A DNA stretch of 6,149 nucleotides. Source: Candidatus Borrarchaeota archaeon (lineage in GTDB: Archaea > Asgardarchaeota > Sifarchaeia > Borrarchaeales > Borrarchaeaceae). The stretch lies in NCBI GenBank assembly GCA_016840645.1, contig JAEORY010000254.1, positions 1 through 6,149 on the forward strand, given 5' to 3'. Of the stretch, positions 1 through 6,149 are shown in pieces (the stretch's first letter is position 1; the number at the start of each line of letters is the position of its first letter). The translations under genes were made by a program, and so were the position numbers. The notes beneath the pieces were generated by a model. It was not told the origin of the DNA. It saw nothing but the letters and a program-made list of their open reading frames with translations, and made no database searches.

Positions 1-3000
1 ATTCGAGTACGATAGTCATATTGAAGTTTCGAAAGTCCAGCTAAGTCAGCAGCACCATATCCACATTTTTCACAAGCAAAAACAAGAAGTAATGATTTTT
101 GTTTGCTTTCAGCCAAAAGTGATTCAATTTGTGGATAGAATTGCTCATCGCGCCAGTATCGAAGTTCTCTCGCTCCAGAGGGACATGCTGCAACACATGT
201 ACCGCAGCCCTTACATTCTATTTCATCGGTTACTGAAACCAGTTCCCCAGTGTCAGTTTCTTTCATAGTTATAGCATCGTAAGGGCAGGCGATTACGCAC
301 ACCTTACATCCGCTACAAAGATTCTCGTCACATACAGCCTTGATTAGTTCAAGTTGAATCTCTTTCTGTTGTAGCAGCACGCCTGCTGCTGACGCCGCTG
401 CTTTACCTAGCACTATTGAGTCGCTTATACTTCGTGGAGAAAGAACAGACCCTGCTACGTAAACGCCATCTTTTCGTGTTTCGACAGGTTTGAATTTTAT
501 GTGGATAGGCTCAAGAAAACCATCAGAAGAACGAGTCACTCCTGTTAGCTTACATAATTTATCAAAGCCTTCAGGAGGTTCTTGCCCTACCGCTAGCACT
601 ACATAATCGGAGTCTATCTCGAATGTAGTTCGTGAAAGGGTATCGCGTACTTGAACCAGAGCCTTTTCATTTTGGGCTGCCATAACCATTGGGGGTCTTT
701 CTTCTGTCCATCGCATAAAATTGGTACGATATTGTTTTCTTGTAGTTAGATAGAACTCTTCCATATACCTTCCGACAGGTCGCAAATCCTCCTTAAAGAG
801 GACAAAGGTTTGACAGTTCGGAAAGAGTTCTTTCACGGTCTGCGCATTTTTCAGTGAGGCACCGCAACAAACACGGGAGCAGTATTTGTTTCCATCTTCT
901 TCTCGTGAGCCAACGCACTGAATGAAGACAACCCGTTTTGGTTCTTGATAAAAACTGCGCGTTTTAAGCAGTTCCTCGAATTCAAGAGAAGTTACCACTC
1001 GTGGAACAGTATTGTAACCGTATTCACCGTCCTTGGGAGTATATGTATTTGTTCCGACAGCTATAATTATAGCGCCAACGTTAATATCGGTGTTTTCTCC
1101 ATTATTTCTCCTAATTTGTGCTGTAAAATCACCGATGTGACCATCAAGGGATTCCAACGAAGACTCAAGGTAAACCGAGATATTGGGAGCATTAGTTATT
1201 TGTGCTGTTAATTCATCCAAAATTTGGCTGGCTTCAGTTTTTTCTGGAAACACTCTGTAAAGAGAATTGAGACGACCACCAAGTTGAGAATCTTTTTCTA
1301 CGAGGTGAACATTGAATCCTTGATTAGATAAATCAAGGGATGCCGACATTCCAGCAATTCCACCACCAATAACAAGAGCCTCGTTGACAACTGAAACCGT
1401 CCGATATGGCACAATCTCAAGATGTAGTGCTCGTGCAATGCCAGCCCTGATCAAGTCCTTTACTTTTTCTGTGGCTTCTTTTGGTGTCTGCATATGAACT
1501 TGCGCTGCCTGGTCTCTTATGTTCACGTATTCAAGATAATACTTACTTACTCCAGCAGACTCTAAAAGAGTCCTAAATGTTTCTTCGTGAAGTAAAGGTG
1601 AACATGCTGCTACTAAAACCCGATTAATATTGAGTTCCTTTATCTTCTCGCTAATTTGCTGTTGTCCTGGCTCACTACAGAAGAACTCATTGTTATCTAC
1701 ATAGATCACGCCAGGTAATGTCTTTGTATATTCCATGACTTCTGGTACATCGATGTAATTTGCGATATTGCCACCACAGTGACATACAAAAGCGCCAAGT
1801 CGAGCCTCACTAGAAACTTCGAACTCTGTTTTAGGTGTATCTGTTTTGATATGTGGTGGAAAACCAGATAAAAGGTTCACTGCAGACGATGCAGCAGCTC
1901 TTGCTTGAGTAACTGTATCTACAGCATCTTTTGAGCCTGTTGCCACTCCCGCGATAAAGATTCCATGTCGATTTGTTTCGATTGGATGATAACTGTTGAT
2001 TTCAAGGGGAAATCCGTCATCGCTAATTTCAATGTTTAATTTTTGGCATAGTTCGTGTGTCCCTTCAGATGGAACAAATGAACTAGATAAAACAACAAGA
2101 TCGATATTTTTGACCTGAGAGACTTCTCCAGTATTAGTATCTTCAACCCAGACAATCAAGTCTTTTGTTTCTTCGTTTTCTTGAATTTCAGCCACTTTAC
2201 CGCGAATTAAATTAGGATTATAGCTATTCCGTGTGTCCCTGTAGTATTCTTCGTAAAGTTTTCCTGAGGATCTTATATCTATATAGCAAATGTCTGCCTG
2301 TCCTTTTCCTTTTAATTGCAGTTTATAGGCTCTAGCTTGTTTTAATGCGAACATACAGCAGACTCGGTTACAGAATTTATTGCCGACTTCCTTTTCACTT
2401 CTAGAACCCACACATTGAACCCATAATACCCTGTTTGGTTCTTTTCCATCAGAAGGTCTCACTATCTTGCCATTAGTAGGACCTGTGGGATGCATCATTC
2501 GTTCAAACTGAAGTGATGTAACAACGTTTTCGTAGTATCCATAGCCAAATTGTTTCAATGGTGTTGGGTCGAATTCATCAAAACCCGTGGCTACAATTAT
2601 CGAGCCAACATTGATTTCGATGATCTCTTCGGCATCAACAAAGTTTATTGCTTCCGCAGGACACTCCATCTCACACATTCCACAATCTATGCACTGCTCC
2701 TTATCTAATCTAGGGATCTGGGGGACTGCCTGAGGAAAAGGAAGATAAATTGCTTTTCGTACACCTATACCCATATCGTATTCTGAAGTCACTTCAACTG
2801 GACATACTTCAAGGCATTTTTGACATCCTGTACATTTGTCTGAATCGACATATCTGGGGCTTTGTTTAAGTTTTACCGTAAAGCTTCCTGGTTTGCCATT
2901 TACCTCTAAAACTTCGGTAAGAGTAAACAAGCGAACATTGTCGTTTCTGGCAACGCTTGACATAAGTGGTGTAAGTGGTCAAGCCGAGCACTCATCGGTC

Positions 3001-3167
3001 GGAAAGATTTTGTAAACCTGTGAAAATCGTCCTCCAATTGTTTCTCGTTTCTCTACTAGAAACACCGTATAGCCTTGATTTGCAATATCTAGCGAAGCAT
3101 ACATGCCAGCCATTCCGCCGCCAATCACCAAGACACTTTCTGCCGCTTTACTTTCCAATGCATTCAT
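1..3167 (-). CDS. hdrA: Selenocysteine-containing tandem HdrA fused to MvhD, C-terminus cut by window edge
   Basis: This is heterodisulfide-reductase-type subunit A, partial: 1055 codons to the left edge with one in-frame TGA at codon 63. Visible order: FAD module 1 with GGGMAG at 16-21 and GGRF at 45-48; the motif DECSAUPLTP at 58-67, with U the TGA; inserted ferredoxin C112-C115-C118-C122 and C159-C162-C165-C169; HdrA motif VQCVGSR at 250-256; HdrA N-terminal-type domain at about 456-583 with CHCG (462-465), C497 and ACSP (521-524); FAD module 2 with GGGIAG at 601-606 and IQCVGSR at 749-755; ferredoxin C951-C954-C957-C961 and C985-C988-C991-C995; then an MvhD/FlpD start, ACEKCGYGAADLAG at 1031-1044. 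HdrA is the flavin and ferredoxin subunit of electron-bifurcating Hdr complexes in the cytoplasm. The start is fixed: GGAGG lies 8 bases upstream and an in-frame TAA directly precedes the ATG. Without recoding, the gene would split into 62 residues plus a piece probably called from Met69. Confidence 0.93.
2942..2955 (-). promoter_or_regulatory. Candidate apical SECIS stem-loop downstream of the UGA
   Basis: In the transcript, CGUU (2955-2952) pairs with AACG (2945-2942) around the six-base loop GCCAGA. The loop begins 27 bases after the UGA and its first base is G. Both points fit the general rule for bacterial SECIS elements: a short upper stem, G in the first two loop positions, and a spacing of roughly 16-37 bases. 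The stem is only 4 base pairs and shares one base with the larger hairpin, so the evidence is moderate to weak. Confidence 0.4.
2955..2984 (-). promoter_or_regulatory. Hairpin enclosing the UGA, candidate part of the bacterial SECIS
   Basis: In the transcript, GCUUGAC (2984-2978, containing the UGA) pairs perfectly with GUCAAGC (2961-2955). This gives a 7-base-pair stem with a 16-base loop. The loop region contains a direct repeat, CCACTTA at 2978-2972 and 2969-2963, two bases apart. Bacterial SECIS hairpins also begin at or next to the UGA. The loop has no guanine, however, so this may be only the lower part of the element or an alternative fold. Confidence 0.45.
2979..2981 (-). other. In-frame TGA read as selenocysteine (codon 63 of hdrA)
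   Basis: The TGA stands where HdrA proteins have the second cysteine of the D-C-S-x-C-x-L-T-P motif beside FAD module 1. The flanking residues, FPTDECSA before and PLTPLM after, match the family continuously across it. The frame stays open for 992 more codons to the window edge. This is the only in-frame TGA in the three genes, and tryptophan is encoded by TGG, which argues against a genome-wide TGA reassignment. HdrA selenoproteins with selenocysteine at this site are known in methanococci and in some anaerobic bacteria. What is inferred is that the host has SelA, SelB, SelC and SelD, none of which lies in this window. Confidence 0.88.
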
Positions 3168-3350
3168 TTAACGAACCTCCTACTTAGTGAACACCTCCAA
3201 ACTACTCTGACTTAATGTTCGGTTACTTTTATTCAATTCTTCTTTGATGATGTCAGCGTAATGCACTTCAAAATTATAAAAAAAGGTGCGGCAACTGATG
3301 AGCACATATATCCCTATACACTTGTAATACTTGGTTAGATATTTGTCACA
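3168..3350 (-). other. 183-base gap between the HdrD-type gene and hdrA
   Basis: This is the only real gap in the cluster. It contains no credible small gene. A weak terminator-like element lies at 3305-3278: GTGC (3305-3302) pairs with GCAC (3289-3286) across 12 bases and is followed by seven T after CC. A 4-base-pair stem is too weak to trust. Near hdrA there are two GGAGG blocks, at 3196-3192 and 3180-3176. I find no convincing promoter, so whether hdrA is co-transcribed with the two upstream genes remains open. Confidence 0.4.
3176..3180 (-). promoter_or_regulatory. Ribosome binding site of hdrA
   Basis: GGAGG lies 8 bases upstream of the ATG at 3167, which is ideal spacing. Together with the in-frame TAA at 3170-3168 it fixes the hdrA start. 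Confidence 0.85.
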
Positions 3351-4547
3351 TTAGCGATAACTGTCAACTACACCTGCTGAATAGGCAACAAGTCTCGGCA
3401 ATTCTAAAACGCGAATACGTTCTCTGTAAGCCCGCATACCTAGACTATGGTGACAAGTCGGACATGACGTCACAATAAACTGTGCATCTAACTTAGCGGC
3501 GTCTCTTATGATCTCATCGGTTAGATCATTTCTTAAGGCAGTATAAGGAACGCGAATAGGTCCACCACAGCATCTTGCTTCGCCCATAGTTTCGGGTAAT
3601 TCAACGAACTCAACGCCTGGAATACTTTCGATCAGTTTACGTGGGGCGTCGTAAACCAGCGCATATCTACCAAGGTGACAAGGATCTTTGAAAGTAACCT
3701 TTGCTTCGAGTGATCGCGTAAGTTTTATTTTTCCTTCATCGACCAAACGTTCGAGAACTTCCGTGATATGATAGGCTTTTGGTACATCTTCCGAGACTTC
3801 CTTATAATCATTATTGAAAACTGATGCACACATTGGGCATGCTGTGATGATGGTTTTAATTCCACGTGATTTGAAGATCTCAATATTTTTCTCAGATTCT
3901 TTCTTGAAGTCCTCTGTAAACCCTAGCCAATTGAGATAACCTCCACAACAATACTCTGAATCGAGCATTGTGAATTCTTCTCCTGCTTCTTTCAACAGTT
4001 TGATGCCAGCGAGTGAATTTTCTGGATAATCAATTGTTCCAACACATCCAGCATAGTAAAGAGTAGAAGATTCCTTTGGAAGGGCTGTAATTATCTCACC
4101 AAAAACCTCTTTGAATACGGCTGGATCCTGAGCGTGAGTATTTCCTATCTCCATTATGTTGCTTGCGATTGCCTTATGTTCATCAAGAGCATGACCATGC
4201 TCTGCTAGCCACTCTCTGACATGATGCATAACGTCTGTGACTTTGATTTTAGCTGGGCAATGCGTTTCGCAGAGTTTGCACAACGTGCAGGTATAAAGAA
4301 TATCAAGGGCCCTTTGGTCAATAGGAAGTCCTCCTTCGATAAGGGCACGCTCAACCATAATTCTACCTCTGCAATTGAACGTATCGACCTTAGTCGCGTC
4401 AAAAATTGGACATGCAAACCTACAGAAGCCACATCTTACACATCTATACGTCTCAGTTTCGGAATCTTCGGAAATGACCATTTTTTCAAATCTTTGTGGT
4501 AGCATTGTGCCTGAAACTACATTTTCTTTCGTCATTTTAGCTTGCAT
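3351..4547 (-). CDS. HdrD/GlcF-type (Fe-S)-binding protein with two ferredoxin motifs and two CCG domains
   Basis: This complete 398-residue iron-sulfur protein combines an HdrC-like and an HdrB-like half. Two CxxCxxCxxxCP motifs, at C36-C39-C42-C46 and C87-C90-C93-C97, should bind two [4Fe-4S] clusters. Two complete CCG domains follow: C168, C200-C201, C237/C240, and C290, C326-C327, C362/C365. In HdrB/HdrD such cysteines carry noncubane [4Fe-4S] centres; in GlcF-type proteins they serve electron transfer. Both sets are intact here. No signal peptide or transmembrane helix is seen, so it is probably soluble. The called ATG overlaps the upstream flavoprotein gene by 11 bases. GGAGG directly abuts this ATG, so the in-frame ATG at codon 5 (4535-4533), one base after the upstream TAA, is a serious alternative giving 394 residues. 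With GlcD before it and HdrA after it, I infer that it wires the GlcD flavin to HdrA, replacing separate HdrB and HdrC. GlcF and HdrD cannot be told apart by motif alone. Confidence 0.92.
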   Translation of the reverse strand: MQAKMTKENVVSGTMLPQRFEKMVISEDSETETYRCVRCGFCRFACPIFDATKVDTFNCRGRIMVERALIEGGLPIDQRALDILYTCTLCKLCETHCPAKIKVTDVMHHVREWLAEHGHALDEHKAIASNIMEIGNTHAQDPAVFKEVFGEIITALPKESSTLYYAGCVGTIDYPENSLAGIKLLKEAGEEFTMLDSEYCCGGYLNWLGFTEDFKKESEKNIEIFKSRGIKTIITACPMCASVFNNDYKEVSEDVPKAYHITEVLERLVDEGKIKLTRSLEAKVTFKDPCHLGRYALVYDAPRKLIESIPGVEFVELPETMGEARCCGGPIRVPYTALRNDLTDEIIRDAAKLDAQFIVTSCPTCHHSLGMRAYRERIRVLELPRLVAYSAGVVDSYR

Positions 4548-5994
4548 CCTCCAATATGTTTATTCTTTGACCCGGAATAGGTATTATATGACCAGGACAC
4601 AGTATGTTTTTAGGGTCAAAGGCTTGTTTGATTTTTTTCGTTAACTCAAGTACTGCCGCTTCATGTTCCACCGGCATCATCATAAGTTTAGAAACTCCGA
4701 TTCCGTGCTCGCCAGTTACGGTTCCTTCCAAATCGACCGCAGCATGCCATAAATCGATTAAAGTTTGTAAAGCGCGTCTATGCTGATCTGGATCTCTTTC
4801 GTCCCAGAGAAGTATCGGATGTAAGTTGCCATCTCCTGCGTGACCAAAAGTCGCTATTTCAATTCCATTCTTTTCACTAACTTCATCAATCTTTTGGAAC
4901 ATAATGGGTAAGTTTTCGAGTGGGACACTTACGTCCTCCATACGAGCAGTAGGTCTTCGAAGAGTTAGTGCGGGAAATGCCGCCTTTCTTGCTGCCCACA
5001 CTTGCTCGCATGTTTTTGCATCTCTCGCGACCTCAGTTTGAATTGCGCCCATTTCTTTAAATACTAATTCTAATCGATCAAGACGCATTTCTACATCGTC
5101 TCTATTTCCGTCCAGTTCAACAAGTACCACGGCACCACATTCAGGGAATTTTACCTTACCAGAATACTCCTCTACTGCTTTAAGTGTCTTATAATCCATT
5201 ATTTCGGTGCCTGAAGGGTCAAAGCTTCTCCGAATGATTTCTCTGACGCACTTGCTAGCGGCAAAGGCTGTATCAAAATAACCACTTGCTACAAGGCGGA
5301 TTTCAGGCAACGGCTGCATTTTTAGCATTGCTTTTGTTATAATACCTAAAGTTCCTTCTGAACCTACGAAGAGAGAAACTAGATCATAGCCACAAACGTA
5401 TTTAATAGCTTTATTGCCGATGTTAATGACTGTACCATCGGCTAATACAACTTCAAGACCCATCACCCATTGTTCTGTAACACCGTATTTGACTGCACGA
5501 ATTCCGCCGCTATTATTATTGACCATGCCACCAATGGTCGCCGTTTTATCGCTTGCGGGATCTGGCACGAAATAAAAACCGTGTGGTTCTAAGTAGTTAT
5601 TTAGATCTAGACATACCATTCCTGGCTCAACAGTTATTAGAAAATTCTCCAAATCGAGATCTACAACCTTATTCATCCTTGCAAGAACAAGAATGAGACA
5701 ATCTCCTTTAGCTGGAATCACTCCTCCACAAACATTGCTGCCTGCACCACGTGGAATGAGCGAAAATTCATACTTGTTCGCTAATTTCACTATAGCAGAA
5801 ACCTCTTCAGTATTATGAGCGAAAGCTACCGCAGCGGGCATGCCCGTATCTATGCTAGCGTCGCGACTGTATATATACAGATCGATCTCGTGGTTTAAAA
5901 CGTTGTCCTCTCCAACAATTTTTTTCAGTTCAGGGATGATCGTACCATCCCAATCTAACTTATGTTCCTTAAGTTCTGCAAGTGTGATTTTCAA
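4537..5994 (-). CDS. glcD: FAD-binding 2-hydroxyacid dehydrogenase, GlcD / D-lactate dehydrogenase family
   Basis: This is a complete 485-residue flavoprotein of the vanillyl-alcohol-oxidase/GlcD family. The family oxidises 2-hydroxyacids such as glycolate, D-lactate or 2-hydroxyglutarate to 2-oxoacids; the substrate here is not decidable. The N-terminal FAD-binding half shows PRGAGSN at residues 81-87, GGMVNNNSGG at 155-164 and LFVGSEGTLGIIT at 208-220. The C-terminal FAD_oxidase_C half shows GHAGDGNLHP at 384-393, GEHGIG at 428-433 (family metal/substrate-site histidines) and DPKNILCPGHI at 460-470. There is no signal peptide or membrane segment, so it is probably cytoplasmic. Length is normal for the family. 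The frame is closed by TAA at 6003-6001, and the only usable near-cognate start is TTG at 5994; the first internal Met is residue 52, which would cut into the FAD domain. The stop lies inside the next gene's 5' end, which suggests translational coupling. The electron acceptor is inferred to be the HdrD-type protein next door. Confidence 0.93.
   Translation of the reverse strand: MKITLAELKEHKLDWDGTIIPELKKIVGEDNVLNHEIDLYIYSRDASIDTGMPAAVAFAHNTEEVSAIVKLANKYEFSLIPRGAGSNVCGGVIPAKGDCLILVLARMNKVVDLDLENFLITVEPGMVCLDLNNYLEPHGFYFVPDPASDKTATIGGMVNNNSGGIRAVKYGVTEQWVMGLEVVLADGTVINIGNKAIKYVCGYDLVSLFVGSEGTLGIITKAMLKMQPLPEIRLVASGYFDTAFAASKCVREIIRRSFDPSGTEIMDYKTLKAVEEYSGKVKFPECGAVVLVELDGNRDDVEMRLDRLELVFKEMGAIQTEVARDAKTCEQVWAARKAAFPALTLRRPTARMEDVSVPLENLPIMFQKIDEVSEKNGIEIATFGHAGDGNLHPILLWDERDPDQHRRALQTLIDLWHAAVDLEGTVTGEHGIGVSKLMMMPVEHEAAVLELTKKIKQAFDPKNILCPGHIIPIPGQRINILEDAS
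4548..4552 (-). promoter_or_regulatory. Ribosome binding site of the HdrD-type gene, abnormal spacing
   Basis: GGAGG touches the called ATG (4547) with no spacer and lies 12 bases before the second in-frame ATG (4535). Neither spacing is ideal. The second ATG is in the arrangement TAA-A-ATG with the upstream stop, which suits translational coupling. The site lies inside the last codons of the upstream flavoprotein gene. Confidence 0.6.
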
Positions 5995-5995
5995 G

Positions 5996-6002
5996 CCTCC
6001 TT
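5996..6002 (-). promoter_or_regulatory. Ribosome binding site of the GlcD-type gene, abnormal spacing
   Basis: AAGGAGG ends one base before the TTG at 5994, which is too close for normal initiation. No ATG, GTG or CTG stands at a better in-frame position: the next codons are AAA and ATC, and CTT follows ACA. An ATC at 5988 would have a 7-base spacing, but ATC starts are very rare. The site itself is strong; the exact start codon is uncertain. Confidence 0.65.
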
Positions 6003-6060
6003 ATCTATGTGATCCCCTCAAATTATATGCCTTTCAAATGTCTGTTTTTTTTCCTCCAAT

Positions 6061-6088
6061 AATATACCGAATTATTATTAGCCTGCAA
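6061..6088 (-). promoter_or_regulatory. Possible sigma-70-type promoter of the gene cluster
   Basis: In the minus-strand sense, TTGCAG (6088-6083) and TATATT (6066-6061) are separated by 16 bases. The -10 element matches five of six consensus bases; the -35 matches only three. A perfect TATAAT also lies nearer the gene at 6027-6022, but it has no recognisable -35 box at normal distance. The region is AT-rich, so chance matches are likely. Confidence 0.25.
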
Positions 6089-6149
6089 TTAATAAAGATA
6101 AGGTAGAGCAAATACTGTTTACGCGCGCGAATAATTTGAATTTATAAAT

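Follow-up and report, generated by a model that had tools for sequence, protein, structure and literature searches.

A UGA codon almost certainly read as selenocysteine within a fused hdrA gene of a Borrarchaeum-like Asgard archaeon

The locus and its interrupted reading frame

The window, by which we mean the whole stretch of 6,149 nucleotides that was analysed, carries three genes on its minus strand, namely an hdrA gene that is cut by the window edge and, upstream of it, two genes for a GlcD-like dehydrogenase and an Fe-S protein. The features are as follows, each with its basis in brackets.

3..3167, minus strand: hdrA via readthrough of the TGA, a fused HdrA-HdrA plus the start of an MvhD domain, cut by the window edge (reading frame, family matches)
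2979..2981, minus strand: TGA in frame at codon 63 of hdrA, predicted to be read as selenocysteine, at position 197 of the solved HdrA (frame, alignment to structures, homologues)
2979..3167, minus strand: 62-aa ORF upstream of the TGA in mechanical calling (ORF calling)
3..2963, minus strand: 987-aa ORF downstream of the TGA in mechanical calling, from an ATG at 2963 (ORF calling)
1848..3152, minus strand: module 1, a thioredoxin-reductase/FAD domain with an inserted ferredoxin domain and without N-terminal Fe-S domain, about residues 6-440 (structure alignment, predicted model)
1380..1811, minus strand: N-terminal Fe-S domain before module 2, about residues 453-596 (structure alignment, predicted model)
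348..1379, minus strand: module 2 thioredoxin-reductase/FAD domain, about residues 597-940 (family matches, predicted model)
1224..1226, minus strand: Gln648, the equivalent of position 197 in module 2, where the Cys is lost (alignment)
153..347, minus strand: C-terminal ferredoxin domain, about residues 941-1005 (family matches)
3..92, minus strand: first part of the fused MvhD/FlpD domain, which begins near residue 1026 (family matches, relatives)
3351..4547, minus strand: upstream Fe-S/CCG-domain protein (TfrB/LdhH/GlcF-like), 398 aa (ORF and family matches)
4537..5994, minus strand: upstream FAD-linked GlcD-like 2-hydroxyacid dehydrogenase, 485 aa (ORF and family matches)

The hdrA frame starts with the ATG at 3167-3165, with AGGAGG (read by eye) 8 bases upstream, and is still open at the window edge (position 3), giving 1055 codons within the window compared to 1161 residues in the closest relative. 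The TGA at codon 63 is the sole in-frame TGA among these codons, and the frame remains open for 992 codons downstream of it, which for a random frame of the same base composition has a chance of about 1e-29. An earlier sequence-only reading of this DNA had reported both the 992 open codons and the lack of another in-frame TGA; recomputed, both hold up to the window edge, past which the relatives carry a second TGA. That standard gene calling would yield a 62-residue protein and an N-terminally truncated HdrA was likewise reproduced, as the 62-aa and 987-aa ORFs listed above. Both upstream genes (399 and 486 codons including stops) have 0 in-frame TGAs and end on TAA. We consider that this mid-gene “stop” of an Asgard energy-metabolism gene is almost certainly read as selenocysteine (Sec), and put at roughly 0.9 the probability that the window holds the hdrA of a Borrarchaeum-like Asgard archaeon, with UGA63 decoded by an archaeal Sec system.

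The protein belongs to the HdrA family both by sequence and by fold. In a gapless alignment, residues 25-127 of the window protein pair with 159-261 of 5odc_A, placing codon 63 on residue 197, and 9sfi_A carries a nonstandard residue X at the aligned site. The predicted structure (pTM 0.89) has model residues 8-436 aligning to HdrA residues 150-575, and the remainder to HdrA residues 2-651. Module 2 apparently has no inserted ferredoxin domain, as judged from its length and its Fe-S matches. Cys462, Cys464, Cys497 and Cys522 of the N-terminal Fe-S domain are invariant across 40 aligned sequences.

Among the 120 homologues listed out of 7963, for which the residue at the site was read by local alignment, 117 have Cys where the window has Sec63, and the other three (P0002, P0005 and P0022) begin downstream of it; this Cys count is biased, since gene callers cut Sec versions. 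The gene has the in-frame UGA at the CxxU position, with Cys in homologues, that is expected of a Sec-HdrA. The sequence-only reading had placed the TGA at the conserved Cys/Sec position of the HdrA motif and proposed an alignment across it; the counts in the listed homologues, the gapless match to residue 197 and the X in 9sfi_A all agree with that placement. One of these three entries, P0002 (1017 aa), is a truncated call of the orthologous gene of Candidatus Borrarchaeum weybense, running from the internal Met that corresponds to the ATG at 2963, after the first TGA, to just before a second TGA, and exemplifies how Sec-hdrA genes lose both ends in databases. Another, P0022 (945 aa), a database HdrA that starts just past the residue-197 motif, is possibly a further truncated Sec protein. 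According to passages of PMC12054007, gene callers likewise take the Sec of HdrA in Methanocaldococcus for a stop. In a tree of 55 rows chosen from the listed homologues and the loci (9 Sec, 46 Cys), the Sec label changes at least 2 times; as this tree is biased to Cys and holds no Sec-HdrA from other Asgard clades or from methanogens, independent origins are not established.

Residue 197 and the role of selenium

So what would selenium do at this position? Passages of PMC9012536 describe Cys197 as a ligand in trans: it comes from one HdrA copy and binds the N-terminal cluster of its partner. They assign the HdrA structure to Methanothermococcus wolfeii, whereas the PDB title of 5odc names M. 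thermolithotrophicus; we work on the assumption that both refer to the same structure, 5odc. In the fused chain, the alignment places both the N-terminal Fe-S domain and residue 197, though on different modules. This layout prevails in 111 of the 120 listed homologues, in which Cys stands in module 1, the N-terminal domain follows that module, and the module-2 position lacks Cys. The ANME HdrA3/HdrA4 and the Moorella HdrA treated in passages of PMC9012536 also have two modules per chain, with the Fe-S domain and residue 197 on different modules; in HdrA3/4 the module order is reversed compared to the window protein, where the residue-197 module comes first and the residue is Sec.

We propose that the fused chain would fold as its own HdrA pair, in which module 1 would contribute Sec63 (position 197) as a ligand to complete the [4Fe-4S] cluster in the N-terminal domain that belongs to module 2, and that the completed cluster would lie on the electron path between flavin and ferredoxin. 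Residue 197 should then be kept in the fused form, because there is no other chain residue at that position.

A different role could be considered, in which Sec63 would act as a redox-active selenol close to the flavin and would be no cluster ligand at all. CxxU pairs in other selenoproteins are often redox-active, and Cys60, the partner of the pair, is nearly invariant as well. We nevertheless regard this role as rather unlikely, given that residue 197 of the solved Cys enzyme is described as a cluster ligand coming from the partner copy (passages of PMC9012536), and that the 111 homologues mentioned above keep the residue in the module without N-terminal domain and lose it in the other, which fits the prediction of a ligand acting in trans.

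Codon conservation, a second UGA and SECIS-like hairpins

Orthologues were sought in one genome per species across 84,980 species by exact peptide words, an approach that finds close relatives only. This returned three loci, from Candidatus Borrarchaeum yapensis (L001, 96% protein identity), Ca. Borrarchaeum weybense (L002, 91%) and a Borrarchaeota MAG (L003, 69%). Within the class, the orthologue is present in three of five genomes, with the TGA in all three, and the remaining two gave only matches of at most 50% identity. Long HdrA paralogues of about 40% identity and without TGA exist in the genomes of the first two relatives (G001 and G002). Relatives were also looked for among viral contigs, and none was found.

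All four sequences, that is the window and the three loci, have TGA at the orthologous codon, numbered 63, or 68 in L003. Silent versus replacing codon changes relative to the window number 0 versus 1 (L001), 8 versus 5 (L002) and 26 versus 9 (L003) before the TGA, and 73 versus 45, 157 versus 92 and 327 versus 304, respectively, after it. Most changes fall at third codon positions in every comparison save that of L001 before the TGA, which has one change in total. By this pattern of substitution, the frame acts as protein-coding on either side of codon 63. In steps of 400 bases, the window is 81-97% identical to L002 throughout, and 91-98% identical to L001 within hdrA and 69-79% across the glcD-CCG half (window 3349-6149); from these identities, the glcD-CCG pair of L001 looks like a different allele or a recombinant.

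In all three relatives, the gene runs on into an MvhD/FlpD domain with a second in-frame TGA, at codon 1086 in L001 and L002 and at codon 1092 in L003. The second TGA of L001 aligns to an X of the delta subunit 9sfi_K, which has a further X at a CxxC motif. The gene ends on TGA in L001 and L002, and on a different stop a few codons earlier in L003. A SECIS-like hairpin overlaps or follows this end in each case (L001:9482-9523, L002:9482-9523, L003:7589-7629). It has AUGA as its core, a stem of 10 bp that includes one mismatch and two G-U pairs, a GAAA, a ministem of CCC/GGG, and GA on the 3’ side. In L001 and L002 the stop TGA lies inside the AUGA core, and stop codons overlapping AUGA are described for Lokiarchaeia in passages of PMC11227280. 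The same passages give AUGA_[G/A]A cores, and G[U/G]AAA elements for hdrA/frhD of Sifarchaeia/Borrarchaeales. Furthermore, the GAAA bulge and the CCC/GGG stem come near euryarchaeal SECIS features described there. We infer that the window copy continues like its relatives, into an MvhD domain that contains another Sec codon and is followed by a SECIS.

Since the Rfam scan of L001-L003 listed no SECIS family up to E 2, the SECIS evidence rests on a scanner of our own. Its rule follows passages of PMC11227280 with limits that we set ourselves (a stem of 7-12 bp, at most 1 mismatch, at most 2 G-U pairs, and an AAA close to the 5’ end of its loop); it was fixed only after the hairpins had been inspected. 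With this scanner, a SECIS-like hairpin is found at the stop, or at most 15 bases from it, in 10 of 10 predicted Sec genes, which represent only four orthologue sets (three fusions, five loci of unfused hdrA with frhD, and two selD genes). The 10 Sec loci gave 16 sense-strand matches (the 10 at gene ends and 6 further ones) and 0 antisense matches in 81,359 bases. As a background, 25 matches occur in 523,656 strand-bases of 68 other loci, or 0.48 per 10 kb, a set that includes three loci (L060, L067 and L068) which overlap Sec loci. Not every stop hairpin is the best match of its locus: in L001, one of two off-stop matches ties with the stop hairpin in score, and in L071 an off-stop match outscores it (6.5 versus 6.0). 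In the window itself, the Rfam scan recognised no SECIS; its sole match, snoU30, was taken as chance (22.5 bits against a cut-off of 45, E 1.4). Counting against the Sec reading is the distance of about 3.3 kb from UGA63 downstream to the hairpin seen in the relatives, whereas passages of PMC9723677 give a selenoprotein-to-SECIS distance of 30-500 bases; that range is possibly counted from the gene end.

The window itself holds no Sec-machinery gene. The sequence-only reading had proposed a search for this machinery, which we carried out in the genomes of the three relatives (G001-G003), so that the counts concern these relatives and not the window organism: most of the machinery was found in two of the three, and tRNA-Sec in none. 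SecS is matched in 3 of 3 genomes (E 6.1e-123 or better). SelD is above cut-off in two, each copy having its own in-frame TGA within the motif HGUSC, and SelB is above cut-off in two, in both of which a PSTK-like gene adjoins it. Archaeal SelB domain III is present in the SelB of L002, and the PSTK-like protein beside this SelB scores 186.5 bits against TIGR03574, below the cut-off of 290.5. In G003, the smallest of the genomes (1.7 Mb), none of SelD, SelB and PSTK was above cut-off.

For tRNA-Sec, neither the Rfam model, nor ARAGORN, nor two patterns of our own gave a hit that held in the three genomes. Five Rfam matches below cut-off are read by ARAGORN as tRNA-Trp, tRNA-Cys (twice), tRNA-Lys and tRNA-Leu. 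The first pattern occurs at 41 places versus 19 in a reversed control, with an ARAGORN tRNA in 0 of the 15 places examined; the second occurs at 3 places versus 4 in the control, with an ARAGORN tRNA in 0 of 3, and the one near selD was rejected as it has no tRNA fold by folding or Rfam. A tRNA-Sec is drawn in passages of PMC9723677 for the MAG lw60_2018_gm2_56, which is the L002 assembly.

Against this background the TGA can be weighed as something other than a Sec codon. Two proteins might be made, a 62-aa peptide with the FAD motif and an HdrA re-initiated at the ATG at 2963, which lies six codons past the TGA and is a Met in all four sequences. This would split the FAD fold at its conserved CxxC motif, at a site filled by Cys in nearly all listed homologues, and the internal ATG has no AGGAG-like ribosome site in the 27 bases before it (by eye), in contrast to the AGGAGG of the main start. 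Together with the SECIS-like hairpin that follows the gene in relatives, these points make such re-initiation quite improbable.

A real stop, brought about by a sequencing error or by decay of the gene, would agree with the mechanical calls that end at the TGA, and with the database entries of relatives (P0002 and P0005) that begin past it. It is nonetheless very unlikely, because each of the three assemblies with an orthologue (96, 91 and 69% identity) has TGA at the orthologous codon, in a frame that has no further stop or frameshift and whose changes concentrate at third codon positions. The sequence-only reading had named a read error, or a degraded gene in close relatives, as what would speak against it; we found the TGA codon and an intact frame in all three. 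Lastly, a reassignment of UGA to another amino acid, e.g. Trp or Cys, would account for the open frame and nothing else, and is hardly conceivable with 1 TGA in the 1940 codons of the window’s three genes, TGAs that sit at Cys sites of HdrA and MvhD, and Sec enzymes in the relatives.

Unfused counterparts, gene neighbours and known systems

Passages of PMC9723677 and PMC11227280 describe Sec-HdrA from Sifarchaeia/Borrarchaeales and from further Asgard archaea. It shares with the present gene its family, its clade and, as predicted here, an archaeal/eukaryotic-type Sec insertion, as well as the AUGA-core SECIS-like hairpin found here in relatives. The existence of HdrA selenoproteins, which the sequence-only reading had taken as established, is thereby confirmed; its description of the gene as hidden is right for gene callers. 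Sec-HdrA of this clade is already in print, and the fused gene is a further example of a published selenoprotein type. What differs is the architecture: in the passages of PMC11227280 hdrA and frhD are neighbouring genes, whereas in the relatives studied here two HdrA modules and MvhD form a single chain, whose HdrA and MvhD parts each have one in-frame TGA. The words ‘fused’ and ‘fusion’ have 0 occurrences in the main text of PMC11227280, and the window gene may be listed in its supplementary tables. Among described fusions, NF040770 (HdrA-MvhD fusion HdrA2) is the best NCBIfam match at 1045.2 bits and has the C-terminal MvhD in common; the window protein stays under its curated cut-off of 1100 bits, and has two thioredoxin-reductase modules versus one. 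MvhD is also named in passages of PMC12054007 for the type II HdrA, class A3+MVH, which likewise combines two HdrA modules in a chain, with the N-terminal Fe-S domain on one and residue 197 on the other.

The HdrA-delta complex of PDB 9sfi/9t1s resembles the fusion in having X both at the U63 position of HdrA and at the second-TGA position of delta. It differs in that its HdrA is unfused (658 residues), and in that the CxxC motif of delta has a further X where the fusion has Cys. We infer that X in 9sfi is Sec, which would make this entry the solved structure of a native Sec-HdrA complex; a search of the open-licence PMC literature for 9SFI/9T1S found nothing.

Unfused hdrA genes with two in-frame TGAs also occur in the relatives, as five copies in G001-G003 (L069-L073). 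In all five, one TGA is at the residue-197 site (CSIU) and the other takes the place of the second Cys in the N-terminal CxC motif, where they read FVCEUG, FVCRUG, FICAUG and FVCAUG. The adjoining frhD carries two in-frame TGAs at three of these loci and a single one at the other two, and a review table (part of PMC13188914) gives one Sec for HdrA and two for FrhD. A separate HdrA-like match in G002 (C4:443937-445271) has 1 TGA, and its counterpart in G001 (C57:29162-30511) has 0.

The genes around hdrA hint at what the protein may be connected to. In L002 the order is glcD, the CCG protein, hdrA-mvhD, and then gcvH-like, hdrC-like, hdrB-like and kynureninase-like genes, and sequence comparison shows an identical row in L001 and L003, running from glcD through to the kynureninase-like gene. 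The hdrC- and hdrB-like genes of L002 were assigned by family, under cut-offs, and the same ORFs are present in L001 and L003, outside the window. The gene between hdrA-mvhD and hdrC-hdrB (L002:9605-10057) is GcvH-like, of the lipoyl carrier type, and its ORF is also found in L001 and L003. Against TIGR00387, the GlcD-like protein of the window scores 434.7 bits, under the cut-off of 567.9. Diverging from the glcD operon, on the minus strand of L002 (229-2963), are glyoxylate carboligase- and glyoxylate reductase-like genes, both under family cut-offs, hinting at glycolate/glyoxylate metabolism. Upstream of the operon in L003 is a HEARO RNA (798-1019, minus strand; 128.7 bits, gathering 83).

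In the class, many Dld genes adjoin HdrD, for which lactate oxidation has been proposed (passages of PMC9723677); a search of the open-licence PMC literature for HdrA together with glycolate oxidase and GcvH found nothing. The gene order suggests a 2-hydroxyacid dehydrogenase wired to an HdrABC-like complex, with GlcD, the CCG protein, HdrB, HdrC and the GcvH-like protein encoded around hdrA in relatives. Such a complex would probably oxidise a 2-hydroxyacid, either glycolate or lactate, and link this to a second redox couple through flavin-based bifurcation or confurcation. Both this substrate and the role of Sec63 as a ligand are proposed from homology and gene neighbours.

Whether selenium in Borrarchaeum is an Fe-S cluster ligand in HdrA, with the Sec of the fused form acting across the halves of one chain and the unfused form possibly having two Sec per cluster, is a proposal to which we give a little under an even chance. 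Binding of Fe-S clusters is predicted for some families of selenoproteins (passages of PMC13188914), and the passages of PMC9723677, PMC11227280, PMC9012536, PMC12054007, PMC13188914, PMC6019823 and PMC11097638 seen in the open-licence PMC literature hold no statement of an Fe-Se ligand in Sec-HdrA; 9sfi may already show Se as an HdrA cluster ligand. If the ligand role is true, selenium bound to an Fe-S cluster would have a natural example in Sec-HdrA, and if the Cys of the CxC motif is also a ligand, unfused HdrA would place two selenocysteines on one cluster. What appeared to be two gene fragments becomes one large predicted electron-transfer selenoprotein of an Asgard archaeon, for which a specific structural role of selenium can be proposed.
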